DNA of 35,292 bases. It comes from a virus. The position numbers and the translations under genes are program-made. The notes beneath the pieces were generated by a model. That model did no database searches. It saw only the letters and a program-made list of their open reading frames with translations, and had not been told where the DNA came from. Below are positions 197 through 34,134 of the stretch, piece after piece. The stretch is from positions 1 through 35,292 of IMG/VR virus record IMGVR_UViG_3300028557_001663; one strand, 5' to 3'. Numbering within the stretch: position 1 is the stretch's first letter; every line of letters begins with the position of its first letter.

Positions 197-436
197 ATGA
201 GATACTTGAAATTTTTTGAATCATTCAAATACAAAAACTTTACTATACAAGATATAATTGATTGTATTCAAAGTAAAGGATTTATCTATACAACTATTGT
301 TAATAACTTACCTGATAATGATCCAGATATGGCAATTAATCCAATGAGTGTAGATGATGATGGTTTAATTACGGTTGAAATTGATGGTAGTGAATATGAG
401 GTTGATTTGAAAAATGTAGAAAAAATAGAATTCTAA
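197..436 (+). CDS. Small hypothetical protein, 79 aa
   Basis: Acidic protein starting MRYLKFFESFKYKN and ending in a beta-rich stretch, TVEIDGSEYEVDLKNVEKIE. The start is fixed by the ATG that directly abuts the palindromic promoter element at 181-196. The N-terminus is a weak match to the F-x-x-F peptide shared by other proteins here, so it may be a virion-associated protein, but this is uncertain. Its stop codon overlaps the stop of the convergent gene 433-894. The family is not recognised. Confidence 0.65.
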   Translation: MRYLKFFESFKYKNFTIQDIIDCIQSKGFIYTTIVNNLPDNDPDMAINPMSVDDDGLITVEIDGSEYEVDLKNVEKIEF

Positions 437-3526: not shown

Positions 3527-5212
3527 ATGATTTTAGATAGAAAAGTAAAAATTAAAATAACTAGGAAAAATATTGAATATTATAAAGAATTTTATGAAAA
3601 TATCTCCTTACGAGATATAATTGAAGTTGAAACTGAAACACAATTACAGAATGGTAGTAATTTGAAAGTTAATGTTTGTTGTGATATTTGTTTTGTTGAG
3701 AGATATATAAAATATCAAGCATATAATAAAAATATAAACTCTTGTGTTAAATACCCTATATATACTTGTGACAAATGTTCTCATATAAAATTAAAGGAAT
3801 ATAATAAAGATAAATATGGAGTTGAATATTATTCACAACACCCTGACAGAAATGAGAAGGTTAAAAAAACATCAATTGCAAAATACGGCGTTGATCATTT
3901 CTCAAAATCTATAAACTTCAAAGAAAAAGTATATAAAACCAATTTGGATAAATTTGGATATGAAAATCCGTTTATGGATAGTGAAAGGATAAAATCTATT
4001 TTCAGAGATAAGTATGGAGTTGAACATCCTTCACAGGTTAGTGAGTTTTATGATAAAGTAAAACAAACAAATATTGAAAGAACTGGATATGAGTCTCAAC
4101 TTTCATCACCGGTTATAAGGGAGAAGATAAAAAAGACTAACAATGAATTATATGGATCAAATTCTCCGATGCAATCTGATTTAATAAGAGATTGTAAAAT
4201 AACAAACAATAGTAATTATGTAAAATATGTTGATAATAAAGTCTCTCTATTTAAATGTGATAATAATTTAGACCACTATTTTTATATAGATAGTTCAAGT
4301 TATCATAATAGATTAAGATCTAACTTAAAACTATGTACTGTTTGTAATCCTATTGGAGATAGTCGTTCTATAAAAGAAGATGAATTATATAGATTTATCT
4401 TGTCAATTTATAAAGGAGAGGTAGTTAAAAGTTATAGAGACAAATTAGAGATAGATATTTATCTACCAGAAATTAAATTAGGTTTTGAATTTAATGGTCT
4501 TTACTGGCACTCTGAAAAATTGAAAGATAAAAACTATCATAGTGATAAAACTAAGTATTTTTTGGAAAAAGATATAAGAATTATACACATATGGGAAGAT
4601 GATTGGTCTTTTAATTGTAATATAGTCAAGAGTCAAATTAAAAATTGGTTAGGAAAAACTGATAATAGAATATGGGCTAGAAAATGTGAAGTAGTTCAAT
4701 TAAAATCGGTTTCTAATTTTTTAGAAGATAATCATATACAAGGAGTTGATCAAAGTAGTTTAAAACTAGGTCTTATTTATAATAAAGAATTAGTTTCTGT
4801 AATGACTTTTAATAACTTTGAAGGTCGTAAAAGAATGGAAGATAGTGGTTGGAATCTATCCAGATTTTGTAACAAAATAGAAACAAATGTAGTTGGAGGA
4901 GCATCTAAACTACTAAAATATTTTATAAAAAATTACAATCCAATTAGAATAGTTAGTTATGCAGATAGAGATTGGAGCATTGGTAATTTATATTATAAAT
5001 TAGGATTTAATAATATTAATGAGAGTTTACCAGATTATAAATATGTAGTTAATAATAAGAGAGTTCATAAGTCGAATTTTAAGAAGTCTAAGTTAAAATA
5101 TTCTTGTACAGAAAAGGAGTATGTTGACTCTATAGTAGTTGACAAAATCTGGGATTGTGGTAAGATAAAATTCGAATTAAATATTTATGTAGATAATAAT
5201 TCATTTATTTGA
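3527..5212 (+). CDS. EDxHD-type (Vsr-fold) homing endonuclease with KYGV repeats
   Basis: A 561-residue modular nuclease. It begins with a cysteine-rich zinc module (CCDIC...CDKC, about 60-90), then six helical repeats with the core KYG-V/x-E-x-x-S-Q (about 90-230), the same DNA-binding repeat as the HNH gene at 1090. A second zinc pair follows near residue 270. The nuclease domain shows E near 284, EIDIYLPE at 308-315 and NGLYWHSE at 323-330, fitting the EDxHD homing endonucleases related to Vsr and the PD-(D/E)xK fold. The C-terminal 180 residues (ARKCEV...ADRDWSIGNLYYKLGF) form an extra domain, GNAT-like in appearance, seen in related phage nucleases. The 3' end overlaps the convergent gene 5185-5439 by 28 bases. 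It is a free-standing mobile gene. Confidence 0.85.
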   Translation: MILDRKVKIKITRKNIEYYKEFYENISLRDIIEVETETQLQNGSNLKVNVCCDICFVERYIKYQAYNKNINSCVKYPIYTCDKCSHIKLKEYNKDKYGVEYYSQHPDRNEKVKKTSIAKYGVDHFSKSINFKEKVYKTNLDKFGYENPFMDSERIKSIFRDKYGVEHPSQVSEFYDKVKQTNIERTGYESQLSSPVIREKIKKTNNELYGSNSPMQSDLIRDCKITNNSNYVKYVDNKVSLFKCDNNLDHYFYIDSSSYHNRLRSNLKLCTVCNPIGDSRSIKEDELYRFILSIYKGEVVKSYRDKLEIDIYLPEIKLGFEFNGLYWHSEKLKDKNYHSDKTKYFLEKDIRIIHIWEDDWSFNCNIVKSQIKNWLGKTDNRIWARKCEVVQLKSVSNFLEDNHIQGVDQSSLKLGLIYNKELVSVMTFNNFEGRKRMEDSGWNLSRFCNKIETNVVGGASKLLKYFIKNYNPIRIVSYADRDWSIGNLYYKLGFNNINESLPDYKYVVNNKRVHKSNFKKSKLKYSCTEKEYVDSIVVDKIWDCGKIKFELNIYVDNNSFI

Positions 5213-11676: not shown

Positions 11677-11973
11677 TTATTTTATTTTATTGTAAAGTTC
11701 TTCATCAACTATAATATTGTTTATGTGTCTAGGATCCCCTGTTATTTCTTCTGTTAGATACTCGTGAGCTAATTGATTAACAGCTATATTATCTGTATCG
11801 ATATTACAATAGTGAATGTGTTCAAACGCTTTTTCTAATTCTAATTTGTCCTCTAAAGTAGGTACTATAATTTTATATTTAGTCCATTTCACTCTTTCAA
11901 GTTCTTCTTTTGTGAGGATATCAGTTTTGTTATCTTCATTCTTGAAGTCCTCGTATCGTTTCATTTTTTCCAT
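11677..11973 (-). CDS. Hypothetical acidic protein, 98 aa, with possible N-terminal packaging tag
   Basis: The frame opens at 11973, one base after the topoisomerase stop; a second ATG at 11962-11964 is an alternative start, giving MKRYEDFKNEDNKTDILTKE. From that start the sequence Y-E-D-F-K-N-E lines up with the Y-x-x-F-x-x-E peptide on other proteins in this window, although the I/L before x-E is replaced by K. The rest is acidic and mixed alpha/beta (YKIIVPTLEDKLELEKAFEH). It is co-transcribed with the medium topoisomerase subunit. No family is recognised. Confidence 0.65.
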   Translation of the reverse strand: MEKMKRYEDFKNEDNKTDILTKEELERVKWTKYKIIVPTLEDKLELEKAFEHIHYCNIDTDNIAVNQLAHEYLTEEITGDPRHINNIIVDEELYNKIK

Positions 11974-13938: not shown

Positions 13939-14745
13939 ATGAATGGTATTATTGATAATATAATTATTATATGTCCAGATCATGGGGAATTTCAACAAAA
14001 GATTTCAAATCATCTTAATGGTAATGGTTGTAATGAATGTTCAAAAATAAAATTAAGAAATAATAATTATATTGATAAATGTAATAGTAAATTTAACAAT
14101 AAATATGATTATTCTTTAGTTAAATATATTAATAATAAACAAAAATGTGAAATAATTTGTCCAGAACATGGGATATTTAAACAAACATTGAAAGATCACC
14201 TAAGATATGATGGTTGTCCATATTGTTCAGGTAAAAAAATGAATACTGAATTATTTATTAAAAAGTGTAATTTAAAACATAATAATTTCTATGATTATTC
14301 AAATGTAATATATAGAAGTGCATTTAGTAAAATCGAGATAATATGTCCAGAACATGGCAAATTTGAACAAATGACTTCAATTCATATATTTGGTTCAGGA
14401 TGTCCAATTTGTAAATCATCAAAAGGTGAAAGAGAAATAATAAAATTGTTAAAAGAATCAGGATTAGTATATATACATCAAAAAAAATTTGATGATTGTA
14501 TAAATATAACAAACTTAGTCTTTGACTTTTATATACCAGAAAGAAATTTATGTATAGAATATAATGGAATACAACATTATAAACCAATAAAATATTTTGG
14601 TGGAAATGATGGATTAAAAATTACAAAAAAGAGAGATAATATTAAAAATAAATATTGTGAAAATAATAAAATAACTTTCAAAGTAATAAAATATAATGAA
14701 AATATAAAAAATAAAATAGATGAAATTCTAAATGGGAAAAGTTAA
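13939..14745 (+). CDS. C-terminal part of interrupted homing endonuclease, 268 aa
   Basis: This is the first ATG-initiated frame after the TAG, but the ATG lies inside the third repeat, so it is probably not a natural start. It contains the rest of repeat three, repeats four and five, and the Vsr/PD-(D/E)xK-like nuclease domain (FDFYIPERN, IEYNGIQHYKP). If translated from an internal start, it would keep the catalytic domain with a shortened DNA-binding arm. It overlaps the next gene by 14 bases. Confidence 0.55.
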   Translation: MNGIIDNIIIICPDHGEFQQKISNHLNGNGCNECSKIKLRNNNYIDKCNSKFNNKYDYSLVKYINNKQKCEIICPEHGIFKQTLKDHLRYDGCPYCSGKKMNTELFIKKCNLKHNNFYDYSNVIYRSAFSKIEIICPEHGKFEQMTSIHIFGSGCPICKSSKGEREIIKLLKESGLVYIHQKKFDDCINITNLVFDFYIPERNLCIEYNGIQHYKPIKYFGGNDGLKITKKRDNIKNKYCENNKITFKVIKYNENIKNKIDEILNGKS

Positions 14746-21168: not shown

Positions 21169-21179
21169 TTTAATATATA
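21169..21179 (+). promoter_or_regulatory. Late-type promoter element TTTAATATATA
   Basis: Exact element ending 4 bases before the ATG at 21184. Confidence 0.5.
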
Positions 21180-21183
21180 CTTT

Positions 21184-22514: not shown

Positions 22515-22628
22515 ATATTATATATTTTTTCTGAAATACTAGTAAAAACAAAAGGTTTAATTTTATTAAATTTTATATATACATGTCTAATAAAATCATA
22601 TATTTGTAAAAAATTTGAATAAATGTAA

Positions 22629-23891
22629 ATGAAAATTCATAACTATACCCAGTTTATCAGAGAATCTAACGAACTATCATCTCACTATCTTCCAAATTAT
22701 GAAGATTGTGTGGAAATGTGTGCAAAAGAAGATGCTCCTTTTTATGAATCAAAATTTACTATTGATGGGTATAATATTTCTATATTCAACTATCGTCTCG
22801 CTCAATATAAAGATTTTGTAACTCCTTTAGAAAAAAGACCAGATGTTAAAGCTTATGAAATGAGAGGTTTAACTTTCATATTCAATGAAGATGGATCATT
22901 GTTTAGAAGATTCTTATTGCTTGAAAAGTTCTTTAATCTTAACCAAGTTCCAGAGTCTATGTACTCTATCGTTAAAAACTATAAGATTAAGTTTATTAAT
23001 AATAAAGAGGATGGATCTATTGCATCATTTATTAAACTACCAAATGGTAAAGTTTTAGGTAAATCTAAAATGGGATTTGATAATGAACAATCTAATGGTA
23101 TTAATAGAATTTATAGAACTAGAACAGATGTTAAAACATTTGTTGACTGGTGCTTAAATAACGATATAACTTCTATTTTTGAGTATGTGTCTCCTGCTAA
23201 CCGTATTGTACTAAGATATTTAGATGAAGATCTTATTCTTTTAAGAATGAGAGATAACACAACTGGTAAACATCTTGATATTAAGAACTATCTTGATAAG
23301 ATTGGTACTATTAGAATTGCACCATTTGAAGATGATAATAAAGATTTAGATTCTTTAATAGAAGTTATAGCTAAAGAAGTCGATAAAGAAGGTGTTATCG
23401 TTCAAGCTGAGGATAAGTGGGGTAAGGACTTTTTCTTTAAATTAAAAACTCCTTGGTATATGTCTCTTCATGGATTGCTAACAGAAGACATTTATAGAGA
23501 ACATATTATAATCGGATACATCTTAGAAGAAAAGATAGATGATGTATTAGGTCAGATACCAGTGGAACAACATGAGGCAAGAGAAAGAATTGAAAAAATA
23601 ATTAAAATTGTTAAAGAACAAATCGATATCAAGGTAAAGGATATAGAAAAGTCATATCAGAAATTCTTAGATATGGAATCTAACAGAAAAGATTATGCAA
23701 TTTTATATAATAAAAAGGATACAAACTTTGGGTATGTTATGGCTTTAGATAAAGGTAGAGATATATACGATCTAGCAAAGGAGTATATAAGAGAAAAAAC
23801 AAAAAGGCTTCTTATTGCTAGAGAGTGGCTTAAGAGAATCGATCCTACTTTGTTCTTTCAGGAACCTGATGAAGAGACTCAAGATCAATAA
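22629..23891 (+). CDS. rnlA: RNA ligase, T4 Rnl1-like, with added N-terminal packaging-like peptide
   Basis: A 420-residue homologue of T4 RNA ligase 1. Nucleotidyl-transferase motifs: KEDGS at 126-130 (Lys126 is the predicted adenylated lysine, T4 Lys99), FEYVSPANRIVL (motif IIIa), EGVIVQAED (motif IV) and FFKLKTPWYMSLH (motif V). A family-like C-terminal helical domain follows. Compared with T4, about 27 residues are added in front, beginning MKIHNYTQFIRESNELSSHY. Y-T-Q-F-I-R-E matches the T4 capsid-targeting core Y-Q-E-F-I-A-E. The enzyme would reseal tRNA cut by host anticodon nucleases. The 115-base gap upstream holds a lone TATATTTG without a -33 box. The 3' end overlaps a convergent homing endonuclease by 47 bases. 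Confidence 0.92.
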   Translation: MKIHNYTQFIRESNELSSHYLPNYEDCVEMCAKEDAPFYESKFTIDGYNISIFNYRLAQYKDFVTPLEKRPDVKAYEMRGLTFIFNEDGSLFRRFLLLEKFFNLNQVPESMYSIVKNYKIKFINNKEDGSIASFIKLPNGKVLGKSKMGFDNEQSNGINRIYRTRTDVKTFVDWCLNNDITSIFEYVSPANRIVLRYLDEDLILLRMRDNTTGKHLDIKNYLDKIGTIRIAPFEDDNKDLDSLIEVIAKEVDKEGVIVQAEDKWGKDFFFKLKTPWYMSLHGLLTEDIYREHIIIGYILEEKIDDVLGQIPVEQHEARERIEKIIKIVKEQIDIKVKDIEKSYQKFLDMESNRKDYAILYNKKDTNFGYVMALDKGRDIYDLAKEYIREKTKRLLIAREWLKRIDPTLFFQEPDEETQDQ

Positions 23892-24738
23892 ATTGCCAAC
23901 CTTGGCAATTTATTGACTTTATACTACCTTGTGTGGTATTTTTTATAAAAATAACTCCAGTATTCTTGTAATAACGTAATGTTCTAACGTCTAATTGTAA
24001 TTCATCACATTTATACTTAATAAATTCATCTGAATATATTAAATACTCTATTTTATCTGGAGATATTATCTTATATTTTGGATATCTTTCAATATCAACC
24101 TTGTTTATAATTTTTTTATTTATAACTTCCCAACCAACACAATTTATTGTTTCTGGTTTAGATTGTTTAATTGATGTTATTCTTATTGCTTTAATTTTAC
24201 CTTTATTTGAAGATTTTCTAATTTTTTGATAATCTAATTTGTGTTCAGTGCAGAATGAATTTAATTTAACATTTGTATATAATAAACCATCTGGTGATAT
24301 CATATCATATCTTTTTTCTGGATCTCTGTTTTTACCACCGATAGATATTTTCATTTTAGATTCATTGTTGTGGTGATAATTATCTTGTGGCTTCAATCCG
24401 CCATCATTTCTATTTGTAAGTGGACCTTTATTCAAATCAAATCTTCCAATTTTTTTAATTATCTCATTTTCCTTAATTAAAGAGTGATCTTCTGTTAAAT
24501 TATCAAACAGTTTTACTATGATTGGATCATTTTTACTTTTAATACAATTTTCAATTATATTAAACTTCTCATTAGGTTTGTACTTAGAGGAATTTTTAAC
24601 TTTATTTAAGTGGTGATACATTCTATCATCTTTTCCTTTACCAATATAAAAAGGCTCATATTCAAATGAGATGTCTTCATAGTCAAATTTACCAGGATTC
24701 AATGTATTTAAATATACATAAACATAATATTTATTCAT
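23845..24738 (-). CDS. GIY-YIG homing endonuclease
   Basis: A 297-residue free-standing endonuclease. The GIY-YIG domain has YVYVYL (5-10) and FYIGKG (30-35), with the catalytic-type Arg39 in DDRMYHH and a downstream Glu in KENEIIKK. The C-terminus has two copies of a modular DNA-binding repeat (SPDGLLYTNVKLNSFCTEHK and a second ending in GWQF), similar to intron-encoded endonuclease repeats in which a Gly-Trp closes each unit. The ATG is preceded by a late-type element with a 4-base gap. Its last 47 bases overlap the end of the RNA ligase gene and include a perfect 15-bp palindrome. Confidence 0.88.
   Translation of the reverse strand: MNKYYVYVYLNTLNPGKFDYEDISFEYEPFYIGKGKDDRMYHHLNKVKNSSKYKPNEKFNIIENCIKSKNDPIIVKLFDNLTEDHSLIKENEIIKKIGRFDLNKGPLTNRNDGGLKPQDNYHHNNESKMKISIGGKNRDPEKRYDMISPDGLLYTNVKLNSFCTEHKLDYQKIRKSSNKGKIKAIRITSIKQSKPETINCVGWEVINKKIINKVDIERYPKYKIISPDKIEYLIYSDEFIKYKCDELQLDVRTLRYYKNTGVIFIKNTTQGSIKSINCQGWQFIDLESLHQVPERTK
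23885..23916. repeat. Perfect 15-bp inverted repeat at overlap of RNA ligase and GIY-YIG genes
   Basis: TCAATAAATTGCCAA, a 2-base CC spacer, then its exact complement. It covers the RNA ligase stop codon (23889-23891) and the codons for the last Gly-Trp motif of the convergent endonuclease. No T-tract follows on either side, so it may be a transcript-end stabiliser, a terminator of unusual form, or a recognition site. Confidence 0.7.
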
Positions 24739-24825: not shown

Positions 24826-27480
24826 ATGTTAAGAAGGATGAATAGATTTAAGAAATTTATATTAATAATTTTGTCATTTTTTACGACATTGACTTCATAT
24901 GCTCAGTGTTATAATGCTGACTTTGAGTTAGGAAACTTCACAGGTTGGCAAGGAAGAAGAGGAGATTGTTGTCCTATAACATTACCAAATAATGGAATAG
25001 TAAATGGTCGTCAAACCATAATGTCACCGGGAATAGATCCTCATACTTGTGGTGGTCTTTCAACTGTTTATTCTGGTAACTTCACAGCAAGACTTGGTAA
25101 TGATAACGTTGGTAATCAGGCCGAAGGATTAACATTTACTTTCACAGTAACCCCACAAAGTACATTAGTACAATATGCTTATGCGGTTGTATTTGAAGAC
25201 CCAGGACATACTCCAGATGAGCAACCAAGATTTAATTCTAGAGTTAGACTACCTGATGGTAGTATAATTGCTTGTACTGATTATATGGTAACTGCCGCTT
25301 CTAATCTATCAGGATTTCAAAGTTGCCCAGGTGTTGATAACCAAGGAGATCCAGTTAATATAGCTTGGAGAGATTGGTCAACTGTGACCGTGGATTTAAC
25401 ATCTTATGTCGGTCAAACTGTAACACTTGAATTTGAAACTGGCGATTGCTCACTAGGCGGTCACTTTGGATATGCTTACATTGATGCTATCTATTGTACC
25501 GCAAATGAGATTGATGTTCAGTATTGTGTTAATCAAACAACGGCAATATTGAGTGCCCCTCCCGGATTCACATCTTATCTGTGGGAAACTGGTGAAACAA
25601 CTCAAACAATATCTGTAAATCCAACACTTTATAATACTTTAAGTTGTTTTCTAACAACTGCAACTGGGTGTGAATTAACTTTAACTGCGGATTTACAACC
25701 TACTATACCTACACCATCGTTTACATATGTAGGTCAATGTGAGGGTTTATTTACTTTTACAAATACTTCAACTATCTCTAATAATGGACAAGGAACTTAT
25801 TTGTGGAATTTTGGGGATAATACAACATCAACATCAACTAACCCAACACACTTTTATCAAACACCTGGGGAATACACTATTACACTAGTAGTAACAACTG
25901 ATAATGGATGTGATGCACAATATTCTCAACAAATACAAGTGTATCCAATGCCAACTAGTAGTTTTATTGTATCTGATAATTGTTTTGGTAATCCAACATC
26001 ATTTATAAATACAACCATTCCAGAATTGGGATATTCTATGGAATATCTTTGGTTATTTGGAAATAATATATCATCACAAGAACAATCTCCCGTATATACT
26101 TATCCAAATTACGGAACGTATAATGTAGAATTAATTGTTGGTATACAAGGAACAAATTGTAGAGATACTTTAACGGATGTTGTTAATATAAGACAAAACC
26201 CAATTGCTAGCTTCTTAACACAAAATAGTTGTCAAGGAATACAAAGTCAATTTCTAAATAGTTCACAAGTTCCATCTTGGTCTATATCAAATCAATATCT
26301 ATGGACATTTGGTGAATTTGGATCAACTTCATTGATACAAAATCCGACCTACACATATTCTTCGGATGGTACATATAACGTAACACTTTTAGTTTTATCA
26401 ACTGATGGTTCTTTATCTTGCTCATCAAGTATAACTAATCCAATAACAATATATCCAAATCCAGTATCAAATTTCACACAGCCTAATAATGGTTGTGTGA
26501 ATAGTGATGTTATATTTACTAATTTAAGTAGTATAAATCCACCATCTCAAATTATTAACTATGTTTGGAATTTTGGAGATAATACAATATCAAATGTTCC
26601 TAATCCAACACATAATTATACATCAACAAATACATTTAATATTACTCTAACAACAACGTCAGATTTTGGTTGTGTTGATATTTTTCAAAATTCAATACTG
26701 ATAAATCCATTATCATCAGTATCATTCTCACCAAATAGTGGAAGCGGTTGTCCTCCATTGACTTTAGATTTTACGGATCTATCATCTGGTATAATAAATT
26801 CTTGGAATTGGGATTTTGGTGATGGTCAGGTCTCTAGTTTAGAAAATCCAACACATACTTATTCATCATCAGGTAACTATCAAGTTACTTTACAAGTAAC
26901 TAATGTAAATGGTTGTGTATCAACTTCTAACACATCAACGGTGATAGTTATTCATCCAACACCAACTGCTGGTTTTAGTGTGTTCCCAACCGAAGTTGAT
27001 GAATATAATCCAATTGTTAATTTCACAAATTATTCATCCGGCTCTTCTAATTATGTTTGGAATTTCGGAGATGGTGTGTATAGTTTTTTATCAGATCCTT
27101 ATCATTCATATGATATACCTGGTAGATATATAATCAGTCTTCAAGTTCAAAATCAATTTGGTTGTTTAGATAGTACTTTTGGATATGTTATCGTGAATCC
27201 TATATTTACATTTTATATACCAAATGCTTTTACACCAACAAATAATAAGAATAATGAAATTTTTTTTGGAAAAGGAACCAACTATAAAAGTGTAACAATG
27301 CAAATATTTGATAGATGGGGTGAAAAAATATTTGATAAAACCTCCGCTGAACCACCTGTCTGGGATGGTACATTAAACAATGTTGATTGTCAGATAGATG
27401 TTTATGTATACCAGTTTTTTGTAACTGATATATTCGATGAAGTACACGTTTATAGAGGAAGAGTAACTTTAGTTAGATAA
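24826..27480 (+). CDS. Secreted PKD-repeat surface protein with T9SS type B C-terminal domain
   Basis: An 884-residue protein. A Sec signal peptide (MNRFKKFILIILSFFTTLTS, then YAQ) starts best at the second ATG, 24838. After it come a jelly-roll-like N-terminal domain (about 30-205), a linker with Cys, and six PKD domains (about 290-790) each with the W-x-FGD/N...P-x-H/Y-x-Y...G-x-Y/F core. The last 90 residues (FYIPNAFTPTNNKNNEIFFG; QIFDRWGEKIF; VYVYQFFV) are the gliding-motility-associated CHU_C domain, the signal for type IX secretion with anchoring to the cell surface. It would be exported by the infected host, perhaps to block superinfection, change adhesion or aid release, or it may be a host adhesin captured by the phage. 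Next to it are a zincin and homing endonucleases. Confidence 0.9.
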   Translation: MLRRMNRFKKFILIILSFFTTLTSYAQCYNADFELGNFTGWQGRRGDCCPITLPNNGIVNGRQTIMSPGIDPHTCGGLSTVYSGNFTARLGNDNVGNQAEGLTFTFTVTPQSTLVQYAYAVVFEDPGHTPDEQPRFNSRVRLPDGSIIACTDYMVTAASNLSGFQSCPGVDNQGDPVNIAWRDWSTVTVDLTSYVGQTVTLEFETGDCSLGGHFGYAYIDAIYCTANEIDVQYCVNQTTAILSAPPGFTSYLWETGETTQTISVNPTLYNTLSCFLTTATGCELTLTADLQPTIPTPSFTYVGQCEGLFTFTNTSTISNNGQGTYLWNFGDNTTSTSTNPTHFYQTPGEYTITLVVTTDNGCDAQYSQQIQVYPMPTSSFIVSDNCFGNPTSFINTTIPELGYSMEYLWLFGNNISSQEQSPVYTYPNYGTYNVELIVGIQGTNCRDTLTDVVNIRQNPIASFLTQNSCQGIQSQFLNSSQVPSWSISNQYLWTFGEFGSTSLIQNPTYTYSSDGTYNVTLLVLSTDGSLSCSSSITNPITIYPNPVSNFTQPNNGCVNSDVIFTNLSSINPPSQIINYVWNFGDNTISNVPNPTHNYTSTNTFNITLTTTSDFGCVDIFQNSILINPLSSVSFSPNSGSGCPPLTLDFTDLSSGIINSWNWDFGDGQVSSLENPTHTYSSSGNYQVTLQVTNVNGCVSTSNTSTVIVIHPTPTAGFSVFPTEVDEYNPIVNFTNYSSGSSNYVWNFGDGVYSFLSDPYHSYDIPGRYIISLQVQNQFGCLDSTFGYVIVNPIFTFYIPNAFTPTNNKNNEIFFGKGTNYKSVTMQIFDRWGEKIFDKTSAEPPVWDGTLNNVDCQIDVYVYQFFVTDIFDEVHVYRGRVTLVR

Positions 27481-28475: not shown

Positions 28476-28485
28476 TATATATTAC
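28476..28485 (-). promoter_or_regulatory. Late-type promoter element GTAATATATA
   Basis: Read leftward, one or two changes from TTTAATATATA; ends 4 bases before the zincin ATG (28471). It overlaps the 3' end of the upstream GIY-YIG gene. Confidence 0.4.
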
Positions 28486-29315
28486 TTTTTATATTTCCAG
28501 ATATATCCGGCATAAGTATTCTTATCGCCTTTACAACATTTTGATATTTGACTTCTACTCAATGAACTATCATTCCTTTCAATCTCTCTTAGACTTTTCC
28601 ACTCATTTATTAAATTCATGTCTAAATCATATTGTAATATCTCACTTCTTTTTATTTTAATACCCCTTATAGAGTTTCTTATTTTTTCTTTCTGTTCCTC
28701 AGTTCTAGGTTTTCTATTCCCTACATTCTTGGGATTATTTAGTTTAGATTGTCTCAATTTCTCATTGTGATCATCATCCATTTTTAATCCATAAGCCCAG
28801 TGGTTTTCAGGTGTTGAGAAATATTCTTTAAGTGTGTTACTTATTTTTTCTTTAACTAATGTATCATTACTCTTATTAGGATTATTTAATTTCATTCTTT
28901 CCGAATAATATTCTCTCAACTCTAATGATTTTTCTAAACCTACAATTTCTTCAAGAGTTTTACCTTTTTTAGCAGACGACATTTTCTTTTTCGTCTCTAT
29001 TGAGAACTCAGTAACATCGGTGACATGTGAATTGGTCAACCTATATCCATCTTTTGTTAAGTTCTCAACATAAATTCTCTCTAATTTATTAGATTCCTCA
29101 AAAGAACTACAACTATCTATTATATTCATAATGGGTAGAAAATTATTATTAAGTATCTTTCTTATCCATCTTGCTTTATAGGTATTATATGAATCAGAAC
29201 TTTCATTTATAGATGATGAAATATGGTCATTGAATCTTCTTTTAGGTTCATTGGTTTGACCAACATATCTTATTTCCATTGTAGAAGGATCTGATAATGT
29301 ATAAATATATCTCAT
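28482..29315 (-). CDS. GIY-YIG homing endonuclease with NUMOD-type repeats
   Basis: A 277-residue protein with YIYTLSDP (3-10) and IRYVGQT (15-21) of a GIY-YIG domain, Arg26/27 nearby and a Glu in SNKLERIYVENL. A NUMOD3-like lysine-rich stretch follows (FSIETKKKMSSAKKGKT), then a repeated R-S-x/KLNNPK motif, and a C-terminal NUMOD1-like helix-turn-helix (ILQYDLDMNLINEWKSLREI) ending in GYIWKYKK. It is preceded by a late-type element 16 bases upstream. Architecture and position mark a free-standing mobile gene. Confidence 0.88.
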   Translation of the reverse strand: MRYIYTLSDPSTMEIRYVGQTNEPKRRFNDHISSSINESSDSYNTYKARWIRKILNNNFLPIMNIIDSCSSFEESNKLERIYVENLTKDGYRLTNSHVTDVTEFSIETKKKMSSAKKGKTLEEIVGLEKSLELREYYSERMKLNNPNKSNDTLVKEKISNTLKEYFSTPENHWAYGLKMDDDHNEKLRQSKLNNPKNVGNRKPRTEEQKEKIRNSIRGIKIKRSEILQYDLDMNLINEWKSLREIERNDSSLSRSQISKCCKGDKNTYAGYIWKYKK

Positions 29316-29525: not shown

Positions 29526-31406
29526 ATGAACAAAAGAGATGTAATAGTGGGAATTGATCTTGGGACCACAAATTCGGCAGTTGCTGTAGTAGAAGGTGGA
29601 GAGCCAATCATAATCTCAAATTCTGAAGGAAAAAGAACAACACCTTCAGTTGTAGGTTTCACAGATAAAGATCGTAAAGTAGGAGATCCTGCTAAAAGAC
29701 AATCATTAACAAATCCTACCAAAACAGTTTATTCAATTAAACGATTTATTGGAAAAGATTTTTCAAAATGTACTGACGAAATCAAAAGAGTACCTTATAA
29801 GGTAGTTAAAACTGGAAATAATGTTCCAGGTGTTGATATTGATGATCGTAAATACACACCTCAAGAAATATCAGCAATGATTCTTCAAAAAATGAAAAAA
29901 ACTGCTGAGGATTATCTTGGACATGAAGTTACTCGTGCAGTAATTACAGTTCCTGCTTATTTCGGTGATGCTGAAAGAACAGCAACTATTGAGGCTGGTG
30001 AAATTGCAGGACTAATAGTTGAAAGAATTATTAATGAACCAACTGCGGCAGCACTTGCTTATGGTCTTGATAAGAAAAATAAAGAATCTAAAATCCTAGT
30101 ATTTGACTGTGGAGGTGGTACTCATGATGTATCAGTTCTTGAAATTGGTGATGGTGTGTTTGAAGTAAAATCTACTGATGGTGATGTTCACTTAGGTGGT
30201 GATGATTTTGATAACGCAATCATTAATTGGATGGTTGATGAATTTAAAACTGAACATTCAATGGACTTATCAAAAGATCCAATGTCTCTTCAACGATTGA
30301 AAGATGCCGCTGAGAAAGCAAAGATTGAATTAAGTTCTGCATCTGAAAGTGATATTAATTTACCTTATATCACAGCTAAGGATTCAACACCTCTTCACTT
30401 TGTTAAAAAATTAACACGTTCTAAGTTTGACCAATTAACTTCTTCTCTTGTAGATAGAGCTATCGCTTGTGCGAAAACAGCTTTAACTAAAGCTGGTATT
30501 AAAGCATCAGATATTGATGAAATTATTTTAGTTGGTGGATCTACAAGAATCCCAGCTATCCAAGAAGCCATTGAAAAGAACTTCAATAAGAAACCAAATA
30601 AGTCTGTTAATCCAGATGAAGTTGTTGCTATTGGAGCAGCCATTCAAGGAGCCGTACTTACAGGAAACATTACTGATGTTTTATTATTGGATGTAACACC
30701 ACTTTCTTTAGGTATTGAAACAATGGGTGGAGTATTCACTAAACTAATTGAGTCAAATACTACTATCCCAACTCGTAAGTCTGAAAATTTCTCAACCGCA
30801 GCTGATAACCAATCATCTGTTGAGATTCATGTGATTCAAGGAGAAAGACCTATGGCTAGAGATAATAGATCACTAGGACGTTTCCATTTAGATGGAATAA
30901 TGCCAGCACCTCGTGGTATTCCTAAAATTGAATGTACAATAGATATTGATGCTAATGGTATACTATCTGTAACTGCTAAGGATCAAGCTTCAGGGAAAGA
31001 AAATAAAATCCGAATTGAAGGTGGATCTCAACTTTCTAAAGAAGAAATTGAACGTATGAAAGCAGATGCTGAGGCAAACGCAGAGTCTGATAGACTTGAA
31101 AAAGAAAAAGTTGATAAATTGAATCAAGCTGATAATATGATTTTCCAAACTGAAAAACAAATTAAAGAGTTTGATGAAAAATTAACTGAGGATGATAAAA
31201 CAGAATTGAATACTATTCTTGCAGATTTGAGTTCGGCTCATAAAGAACAAGATATAGATAAAATCGATTCAGAAATGAATAAATTGAATGAATCTTGGTC
31301 AAGAATTAGTACGAATTTATATTCACAGGCTAGTTCAGAACAGAGTACAGATACTCCAGATACTCAACCAGATGTTCAAGATGTTAACTTTGAAGAAGTT
31401 AAGTAA
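29526..31406 (+). CDS. dnaK: Molecular chaperone DnaK (Hsp70), full length
   Basis: A 626-residue Hsp70 with all signature parts: [11 protein letters not shown] (9-19), [30 protein letters not shown] (most Hsp70s have T-F-D; here T-H-D), [10 protein letters not shown], the linker [12 protein letters not shown], a beta substrate-binding domain and an alpha lid. The tail ends in NFEEVK, like Bacteroidota DnaK, implying capture from such a host. DnaK refolds proteins with DnaJ and GrpE; neither is seen here, though the VWA protein at 1931 has DnaJ-type zinc motifs. An operator-like inverted repeat lies upstream and a strong terminator at 31413-31442 follows. No exact -7/-33 pair is seen before it. 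Confidence 0.97.
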
Positions 31407-31463: not shown

Positions 31464-32705
31464 TTAATCATCATCATCATCAAGATAGTCATAACCACCA
31501 CCTGTATCGTTTAATAACCGATCAGCACTTACATCTTCCTTAGAGTTACTTAACTCACCTGTTCCGCTATTAAGATAACATAGAGTATCAAGATATGGAT
31601 AAGGCTCTTCCCAGTGTTTTAAATCTACTATGTAGTCTGTAATTTTTGATTCATTTCCTCTTTCAGCCGTAAAATTACTACTAGATGATTGATTTCTCTT
31701 ACACCACCAGTTATTTTTATTTGAAAATTTCTTAAATAAATCAACATCAGAGTCATTGTTTGTATAGATTCTATCCATTAAGATATCTCCGCTTCTTGTT
31801 GTCCAAAGTATTGCTCTTCCACAAATTTTATCTGAATTATATTTTCCACCAGAAATACTACCATTTTTAGACCATAAAACAACTAACTTACAAACCTCTG
31901 GATTATCTACATAAATATCAAATGTAGAATCTGGCATATCAGCCATACAAGATGAACCTAATGTGCCATCATCACTCTCATAGTAATCGTGATTATATAA
32001 TTTTGAAATTGTAGAACCTTGTACTACTTCAAATCGACTAAATGCATCGTTAATAATATCAATTGTGGCTTTATAATCATTCACAAATTTTTCAATTTCT
32101 GAATCGCTTATAGTTGTACTTCCAGATCTATATAATGCTCTAACTAATCTTCCGATTCTTATTGGATTTCTTGCTGTGCCCCATACTTTACTAAGAGTAT
32201 CATCATGATCGGATAAAGCTTCTTTATTTATGACAGTTTTCATTCCTATATCGGAACTATTAGGACTCTGAGTACATTCAAAATGACAATATATTTTAGA
32301 ATTTGTTCCTACTATTTCTGATAGTATCTTACCAATAGTTCCAACTGTTGGCTTGTATATATCACCTTCTGGTCTTTGGAATCCAAGTTTATTGAATGTG
32401 TTTATATTAGAATCTGTATTTCTTAGAGTTCTACCACCTTGACTAACCTTGTAAAGTATCTCTTTACCACCAATAATCTCCTGAGCCTTTCTATCTGTTG
32501 TGAACATAACAGAATCATTGTCAGTTCCTAAATCAATGAAGTTTTGTTGTAAATTTACATCTTTTGATCCTAAACTAATAAGATAACTAGATACTGGTGA
32601 TTGTATAGACTTTAAAACATTTAAAAACCCATTAGATAAAACCAATTTACTTTCTAGTAAAGCTTCTAATCTTTTTTCTGTTATAAATTCTGAATAATTA
32701 TACAT
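31464..32705 (-). CDS. Hypothetical 413-aa protein with capsid-targeting-like N-terminus
   Basis: Begins MYNYSEFITEKRLEALLESK: Y-S-E-F-I-T-E is the closest match in the window to the T4 capsid-targeting core Y-Q-E-F-I-A-E, with I-x-E at the predicted protease cut. The body has a conserved-looking C-terminal half (GSSCMADMPDSTFDIYVDNP; VCKLVVLWSKNG; CGRAILWTTRSGDILMDRIY) seen in uncharacterised phage proteins; it has many Ser, Asp and Trp and ends in an acidic YDYLDDDDD tail. A late-type promoter lies 19 bases upstream. I infer a late protein packaged in the head; the function is unknown. Confidence 0.7.
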   Translation of the reverse strand: MYNYSEFITEKRLEALLESKLVLSNGFLNVLKSIQSPVSSYLISLGSKDVNLQQNFIDLGTDNDSVMFTTDRKAQEIIGGKEILYKVSQGGRTLRNTDSNINTFNKLGFQRPEGDIYKPTVGTIGKILSEIVGTNSKIYCHFECTQSPNSSDIGMKTVINKEALSDHDDTLSKVWGTARNPIRIGRLVRALYRSGSTTISDSEIEKFVNDYKATIDIINDAFSRFEVVQGSTISKLYNHDYYESDDGTLGSSCMADMPDSTFDIYVDNPEVCKLVVLWSKNGSISGGKYNSDKICGRAILWTTRSGDILMDRIYTNNDSDVDLFKKFSNKNNWWCKRNQSSSSNFTAERGNESKITDYIVDLKHWEEPYPYLDTLCYLNSGTGELSNSKEDVSADRLLNDTGGGYDYLDDDDD

Positions 32706-33019: not shown

Positions 33020-34099
33020 TTATAAAATTATCAATTTATTTATTTCAAACTCTATTTTAATAGGATCTTCATCAAATCTGAACCTTATAAGTTTTATTTT
33101 ATTCTTATTGCAATATTCATTTTTTATTTGATCTTTTATTTTTTGTAATTCAAACGATTTATTACCACCAAAATATCTTATAGGCTTGAAGTGCTGTTCT
33201 CCATCAAATTCTATACATATATTTTTTTCTGGTATATAGAAATCAAACTTTAATTTATTTTTAAATTTACAATCTTCAAATGTTTTTTGTTTAGTGAAGT
33301 TAATATTTAAACCAGTTAATATATTTTCAATATTTTTCTCACCTTTACTTATGTTACAAATAATACATCCACATCCAGATAAATGGTCTGATAAAACCTG
33401 TTCAAATTCTTTACCACATAATAAATGTAATATTTTTATTTTAGATTTTGAGCCTTCAGGATTGGTTAATATCTTATATTCGAAATTATGAATTATATCT
33501 GACTTTTCTTGAACTGAGTTTATAGTGTGTTTAGAATTACCTGCACATTTTGAACATCCAATTCCTAACAAATGTGATGAAATTATTTGATAAAATTCAT
33601 ATCCACAAACTTTATGTCTTATTTTCGACTTCTCATTGTATTTAACATTGTCTGATAATATTTCATATTCACCTTTCCAAATAGAAGTTGACCTTTCGAT
33701 TATACACTCTCTAGTTAGTTTTTTATTTCCGTAACAATTAAAACATCTATCTCCTCTAAGATGTCTATTTCCAACTTGAGTATAAATTGAACTACATCTT
33801 TTATGTTTTATTTTTACAGGTGAATTTCCATTAGTAAAATCTAATATTTCATATTCATAGTTGTGAACTTCGTTTGACTTTTTTTGAAACATTTCTTTAT
33901 CTCTAAATTTACCATGACATTTTGGACATCTCTTCCTGTCTAATAGATGTGATAACCTCGTCTCAAATATCTCACCACAAGAATGTTTAAATTTTGACTT
34001 TTGAGAATTTGATTTATATTCCAATATGACAAATTCAAGATTCAAGTTGTCAATTTCAATTTGGGCATCATTTATAGTTTTCCTAATTCTAAATTTCAT
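33020..34099 (-). CDS. Zinc-repeat Vsr/PD-(D/E)xK homing endonuclease, intact
   Basis: The frame is open to 34129 through a TTG, but the ATG at 34097-34099 (MKFRIRKTINDAQIEIDNLN) is the better start. It has four repeats of about 65 residues with H-x-C-G-x-x-F/Y...S-H-L-L/S-G-x-x-C-x-x-C, each likely to bind one zinc. The nuclease domain has KGEKNIENIL, FDFYIPEKN and CIEFDGEQHFKP, then F-G-G-N and a basic C-terminal helix. The domain order and catalytic strings match the interrupted gene at 13474, so they are paralogues. A late-type element lies 35 bases upstream at 34135-34145. The target is unknown. Confidence 0.85.
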   Translation of the reverse strand: MKFRIRKTINDAQIEIDNLNLEFVILEYKSNSQKSKFKHSCGEIFETRLSHLLDRKRCPKCHGKFRDKEMFQKKSNEVHNYEYEILDFTNGNSPVKIKHKRCSSIYTQVGNRHLRGDRCFNCYGNKKLTRECIIERSTSIWKGEYEILSDNVKYNEKSKIRHKVCGYEFYQIISSHLLGIGCSKCAGNSKHTINSVQEKSDIIHNFEYKILTNPEGSKSKIKILHLLCGKEFEQVLSDHLSGCGCIICNISKGEKNIENILTGLNINFTKQKTFEDCKFKNKLKFDFYIPEKNICIEFDGEQHFKPIRYFGGNKSFELQKIKDQIKNEYCNKNKIKLIRFRFDEDPIKIEFEINKLIIL

Positions 34100-34134
34100 A
34101 AACTTATTTATATTTTTTATTATAACCAATAAAC

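Follow-up and report, generated by a model that had tools for sequence, protein, structure and literature searches.

An RNA ligase of an uncultured phage bears an N-terminal leader resembling the T4 capsid-targeting sequence

Anticodon nucleases of the host are active from an early stage of infection, and the phage repair enzymes that answer them are generally believed to require prior expression. 5'-OH ends cannot be sealed by a ligase on its own, and the RNA ligase of phage T4, gp63, has a second role in tail-fibre attachment. Phage RNA repair includes 2H enzymes, HAD phosphatases and RNA ligases (PMC9503650). In T4, internal proteins inhibit the host GmrSD nucleases (PMC12373910), and one of them, IPIII, is targeted by residues 4 and 7 and processed by residues 8 and 10 (PMC9026906). 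The propeptides of ejection proteins in phiKZ and SPN3US are mostly far longer than 20 residues (PMC5694885). Here, we analyse a viral DNA stretch of 35,292 nucleotides (IMG/VR record IMGVR_UViG_3300028557_001663; hereafter the window), in which an RNA ligase begins with a short peptide that is probably a T4-type capsid-targeting propeptide, loading the enzyme into the head for injection. An earlier note on this DNA knew of no described example, and the open-access journal papers that we searched likewise contained no report of a virion-packed RNA ligase.

The ligase is encoded by an ATG-initiated open reading frame at 22629-23891 (+) of 420 aa, with the N-terminus MKIHNYTQFIRESNELSSHYLPNYEDC. 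It was assigned to the Rnl1 type (PF09511, E 2e-19, above the cut-off), matches phrog_562 in PHROGs (E 6e-57) and has the T4 Rnl1 structures 9do4, 5tt6 and 2c5u as its nearest solved relatives (E about 1e-24 to 1e-23). With the ligase model as query, the top Foldseek match was again T4 Rnl1 (2c5u, E 1e-21), in agreement with an Rnl1 fold. As the earlier note had observed, the nucleophile lies at residue 126 and not 99: K126 (KEDG, 23004-23006) aligns with K99 of T4, and equivalents of T4 Rnl1 Y37, R54, K119, E159, E227, K240, K242 and Y246 are all present, every active-site residue checked being conserved. Because the ligase scored 136 bits against the NCBIfam equivalog TIGR02308 and did not reach the cut-off of 242, it is by sequence a divergent relative, and we do not call it the equivalent of T4 RnlA.

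Table 1. Coordinates of the ligase, its leader and other leader- or promoter-like features in the window
Feature	Position	Strand	Basis
Leader MKIHNYTQFIRES, residues 1-13; core YTQFIRE at 22644-22664	22629..22667	+	Sequence, alignment, motif model, AlphaFold2
Predicted prohead-protease cut after E12	22664/22665	+	Cleavage inferred
Variable unstructured linker between leader core and ligase domain, residues 13-20	22665..22688	+	Alignment, AlphaFold2 model
Rnl1-type RNA ligase domain, residues 21-420	22689..23891	+	Profile matches, active-site alignment, AlphaFold2 model
TTATATATAC before the ligase, match to promoter-like motif [AT]ATATATA[CGT]	22573..22582	+	Motif match
TAATATATAC, promoter-like motif immediately upstream of the 21184 gene	21171..21180	+	Motif match
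187-aa protein, same leader (MKIIKFNQFLNEN), kept in related-phage orthologues	21184..21747	+	Sequence, motif score
413-aa protein, same leader (MYNYSEFITEK, codons 32673-32705)	31464..32705	-	Sequence, motif score, paralogues
98-aa protein, possible degenerate leader (MEKMKRYEDFKNED)	11677..11973	-	Scores 16.8 in the motif model, with I/L missing before x-E
79-aa protein, second leader type (MRYLKFFESF, 'class B')	197..436	+	By inspection against class B pattern

The peptide in front of the ligase domain had been described as about 27 added residues. The shift of 27 in the position of the active lysine is real, but in the alignment the extension beyond the T4 Rnl1 start comprises only about 20 residues, and the other 7 form an insertion inside the domain. 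The confident AlphaFold2 model (mean pLDDT 86.8, from 46 sequences, replacing a poorer model from 9 sequences with a mean of 63) leaves residues 1-17 below 50 and free of secondary structure; pLDDT is 32-47 in this disordered extension and 95 from residue 21, residues 21-30 averaging 95. Because of this predicted disorder at residues 1-17 and order from 21, the extension is, in the model, outside the ligase fold, and the refuting result named in the earlier note, an extension that belongs to the folded domain, did not occur. Compared with T4 IPIII (MKTYQEFIAE), the leader keeps Y, F, I and E at equal spacing, two residues later. The proposed likeness to the T4 targeting peptide in spacing, aromatic positions and I-x-E site thus covers both targeting residues (Y6 and F9, matching Y4 and F7) and both processing residues (I10 and E12, matching I8 and E10).

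Around the ligase, the window holds six homing-endonuclease-like genes of HNH and GIY-YIG types in 35 kb (1090-1917, 3527-5212, 13939-14745, 23845-24738, 28482-29315 and 33020-34129), one convergent with and overlapping the ligase 3' end and another between two topoisomerase subunit genes. A DnaK-like chaperone gene (626 aa; phrog_22485; window 29526-31406, +) is near the ligase here and in LR745206. An 884-aa PKD-repeat protein (window 24826-27480, +) begins with what looks like a signal peptide and has a CHU_C type IX secretion domain at its C-terminus, pointing to Bacteroidota as the host.

For statistical analyses, the strict leader pattern was defined as [FYW]xxF[ILVM]xE within the first 26 residues. 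It occurs at the N-termini of 3 of 46 non-overlapping window ORFs and once elsewhere (expected 0.1, P ~1e-4), and residue shuffles gave a mean of 0.08 matches with a maximum of 1. Two large relatives are similarly enriched: LR756502 (642 kb) has the pattern on 28 of 942 proteins (expected 2.5, P 4e-20) and G011 (476 kb, outside training) on 22 of 615 (expected 2.1, P 1e-15). Jumbo phage CBB was taken up as an independent test because its virion proteome is published, but it showed no excess (1 vs expected 1.2) and does not use the leader, and thus served only as a negative control. A position-specific motif model reached a score of at least 12 at 33 of 942 LR756502 N-termini vs 0 of 2829 internal methionines; the model was trained partly on LR756502, and the independent tests are G011 and T4. 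In T4, which was not in the training set, only ipII, ipIII and 61.1 reached this score, the first two of which are known internal head proteins with capsid-targeting leaders. Because matches exceed expectation in the window, in LR756502 and in the independent 476-kb relative, the leader is, on these counts, not a product of chance. The comparisons also support the view that the ligase peptide belongs to a lineage-wide leader family resembling the T4 capsid-targeting sequence. T4 gene 61.1 itself (AF158101 18966-19130, -) encodes a hypothetical protein whose start, MKTFKEFIKED, is a good match to the capsid-targeting leader; it may be one more internal protein of T4.

A scan of viral contigs yielded 80 ligase loci. 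When Rnl1 homologues of related phages were aligned, as the earlier note had advised, the extension proved to be kept in 18 of 23 ligases of one clade (support 100/97) and missing from otherwise complete relatives; L151, outside that clade, is also leader-bearing, and L149 beside it has a divergent form; the root of the tree is unsure and the number of gains and losses approximate. Leaderless relatives begin with the [IL]PxY core or only a few residues away from it, and inside the clade the peptide was lost in L007 and L118 (MKYLKRYTLFLPSYNEC). About five of the clade's ligases have lost the leader or bear a degraded one, so that it is dispensable in those. Within the leader, Y, F, I/L and E are the residues kept, and the linker varies in length and sequence, while the leader of the nearest divergent pair differs by two synonymous and no nonsynonymous changes. 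Taken together, these patterns support a modular leader, an add-on to the ligase.

The same leader is found on other proteins. In LR756502, 22 proteins are related to T4 proteins and only the ligase among them has a leader; the other 21 (replication, recombination, metabolic and structural) are without. The PseT-like kinase of this phage has no leader. A 2H phosphoesterase (2'-5' RNA ligase/Acb1-like) carries the strict leader in LR756502, G004, G007, G008 and G011 and variant forms in G005 and G006, and CCA-adding or poly(A) polymerase proteins carry it in G007, with variant F-L-E-S forms in G005 and LR756502. The bacterial-type glutamyl-tRNA synthetase of LR756504 (L104:8081-9682) is extended at its N-terminus by 45 residues that include the leader (KKDYSDFLKES), and further carriers with known domains include PPK2, a DHH protein, a P-loop kinase, a methyltransferase and an exonuclease. 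Judged by these domains, such carriers are enzymes, often RNA-directed. For the 413-aa and 187-aa proteins of the window, no function was found in Pfam, PHROGs or NCBIfam, and a scan with the former returned near-copies only. The 413-aa family (about 330-650 aa) has no database match and five leader-bearing copies in LR756502 alone; its copies are window 31464-32705 (-), W02_136423, 251650, 321131, 496224 and 600919, with at least two leaderless paralogues, W02_566096 and G009_61325. At LR756502 491256-492961, the ligase and an adjacent, unrelated 145-aa gene have near-identical leaders (MKKLHRYNSFIKES and MKLHRYNSFINES), which look as if copied from one gene to the other.

A second leader type (MKYLKLFENF or MKHLKxYKIFES) was seen on dozens of proteins, in the 182-kb contig G005, in W02, in G011 and at window 197-436. 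These leaders often end in [ILV]-x-E and have the upstream promoter-like motif in common with the first type. [ILV]xE is enriched at N-terminal positions 3-14 in LR756502, G005 and G007, and at these positions no enrichment was found in T4 or CBB.

With regard to timing, the promoter-like motif [AT]ATATATA[CGT] precedes genes of LR756502 and G011 at different rates: 13/16 for virion genes, 24/56 for leader genes, 1/27 for replication genes and 137/1310 for all others. First noticed on LR756502 and refined on both genomes, the motif was tested on the same genes, and its P-values are optimistic; in G011 alone, they are 0.004 for virion vs replication genes, 2e-4 for leader genes vs the rest and a weak 0.055 for leader vs replication genes. 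Late expression, as prohead packing would need, fits this putative promoter, which does not prove it. Bacteroidota-type (TAnnTTTG) and T4 late (TATAAATA) promoters were also considered and were not enriched before leader genes.

The window contig is without head genes, and a gp21-like protease was seen only in relatives. A PF03420 search of the 35-kb window and the nine first relatives, most of them fragments, found none. In LR745206, LR756502, LR756504 and LR756501, genes for the portal, an S77-like protease and a gp23-like capsid protein stand together in that order. The protease ORF of these four huge relatives spans about 700-800 codons, and its N-terminal part resembles peptidase S77. Because PF03420 scored 20-25 bits against a curated cut-off of 27, we name it S77-like only; in an alignment it shares the motifs GExxHP and VSSR with T4 gp21, and both motifs and gene order agree with a prohead protease. 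A profile built from the four found the protease on 6 of 20 further contigs; the three that reach 385 kb are all among the six, and the protease-negative contigs are fragments in which absence means little. Protease-positive contigs with a leader-bearing ligase include G010, G011 and G016, and the leader-bearing ligase of G010 shares 71% identity with the window ligase. The earlier note had counted the extension in phages without a T4-type prohead protease as a refutation; this did not occur, as no contig of at least 385 kb had the leader but not the protease. Capsid proteins of the relatives have a conserved [IM]xE-N near the N-terminus, which is only consistent with a cleavage site. We gave up equating its position with that of the T4 site, as the alignment there is ambiguous.

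From these observations, we infer packaging, cleavage, injection and immediate tRNA repair by the ligase. The first 12-13 residues would act as the propeptide of a ligase made late and recruited via Y6 and F9 into the prohead scaffold core, where the phage's gp21-like protease would cut after I10-R11-E12. The intact enzyme would then stay inside the DNA-filled head, enter the next cell along with the DNA and, ahead of all phage gene expression, be able to seal breaks that host nucleases have made in RNA. The reading put forward in the earlier note is thus supported in part, namely by an add-on leader outside the ligase fold, a T4-like leader family and a gp21-like protease on long contigs of the lineage, adjoining portal and capsid genes where inspected; its residue count was too high by about 7. 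The 2H phosphoesterase, the CCA-adding enzyme and the P-loop kinase, RNA enzymes that also bear leaders, would probably act with the ligase. More tentatively, and with somewhat less than even confidence, we suggest that the megaphage lineage packs an RNA-repair kit via the T4-type leader, undoing host tRNA cleavage before phage transcription; the kit would comprise the RNA ligase, an RNA 2',3'-cyclic phosphodiesterase, a CCA-adding enzyme, a P-loop kinase and, in one phage, glutamyl-tRNA synthetase. In LR756502, a complete head-packed kit is at most putative, because its PseT-like kinase is without a leader. This kinase, the clade ligases with a lost or degraded leader and the lack of head genes on the window contig weigh against the packaging reading.

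If the packaging reading is true, a virion-carried repair ligase would be a ready-made first response to anticodon nucleases, and the T4 packing signal would extend to phages far from the T4 family and to enzymes as its cargo. The leader on the ligase suggests that these viruses deliver repair enzymes along with their DNA, and it offers a simple rule by which the likely head cargo of uncultured megaphages, not covered by any proteome, can be read from sequence. Should second-type leaders also be packed, the cargo would come near 100 proteins in one phage (LR756502), a high number that speaks against packing.

Another reading takes the leader as a different kind of address tag, uncleaved and directing proteins not to the capsid but to another phage-made place such as a replication compartment or an assembly site. 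Dozens of genes with the leader, plus the second type MKYLKLFENF, and a packaging step that is deduced from sequence leave room for this reading. We nevertheless regard it as unlikely, as replication proteins, which such a compartment would need, are without the leader, the promoter-like motif is common to leader and virion genes, and the residues match a mapped signal for capsid targeting and protease processing in a lineage where such a protease is present. A still smaller chance is given to a role in tail-fibre attachment like that of T4 gp63, which would account for late expression and a virion link, with the leader as an assembly docking peptide instead of a packing signal. The nearest PHROG is indeed named 'RNA ligase and tail fiber protein attachment catalyst' and a virion-gene promoter-like motif precedes the ligase, but T4 Rnl1 has its tail-fibre activity without any leader, the leader matches T4 internal-protein leaders at four mapped positions, and it is common to unrelated enzymes without an expected fibre role (CCA-adding enzyme, PPK2, 2H phosphoesterase, GluRS).

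That the peptide is a chance or structural N-terminus, owing to biased composition or to the context of the translation start, or simply a normal piece of the ligase domain, appears very improbable and is already largely refuted. These genomes are AT-rich, and N-termini rich in K, N, I and F are common in them, yet neither shuffles nor internal methionines yield the leader. Many relatives' ligases begin at the core, AlphaFold2 leaves the leader disordered, and only the two synonymous changes separate the leaders of the closest divergent pair.

Among known systems, the packaging reading has a clear precedent by analogy in the T4 internal proteins and Alt, and the leader carriers of these uncultured phages are known from their sequences, none outside T4 being known as packaged. 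As in T4 IPI, IPII and IPIII, a short N-terminal CTS leader of the form aromatic-x-x-F-[I/L]-x-E stands on otherwise unrelated proteins in a lineage with an S77-type protease; here, however, the cargo candidates are an RNA ligase and other enzymes, the core lies two residues later and the carriers number dozens. The T4 ADP-ribosyltransferase Alt is likewise a head-carried enzyme that is injected and acts at once, but it is a different enzyme and its start, MELITELFDE, is without the YxxF spacing. The ejection proteins of the giant phages phiKZ and SPN3US are similar in that many proteins are head-packed, cleaved by a prohead protease and injected, whereas they belong to another phage lineage and have longer propeptides. 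With T4 Rnl1/gp63, the ligase of the window shares the fold and the active-site residues, while the T4 enzyme, at about 30% identity, has neither the leader nor the 7-residue insertion.
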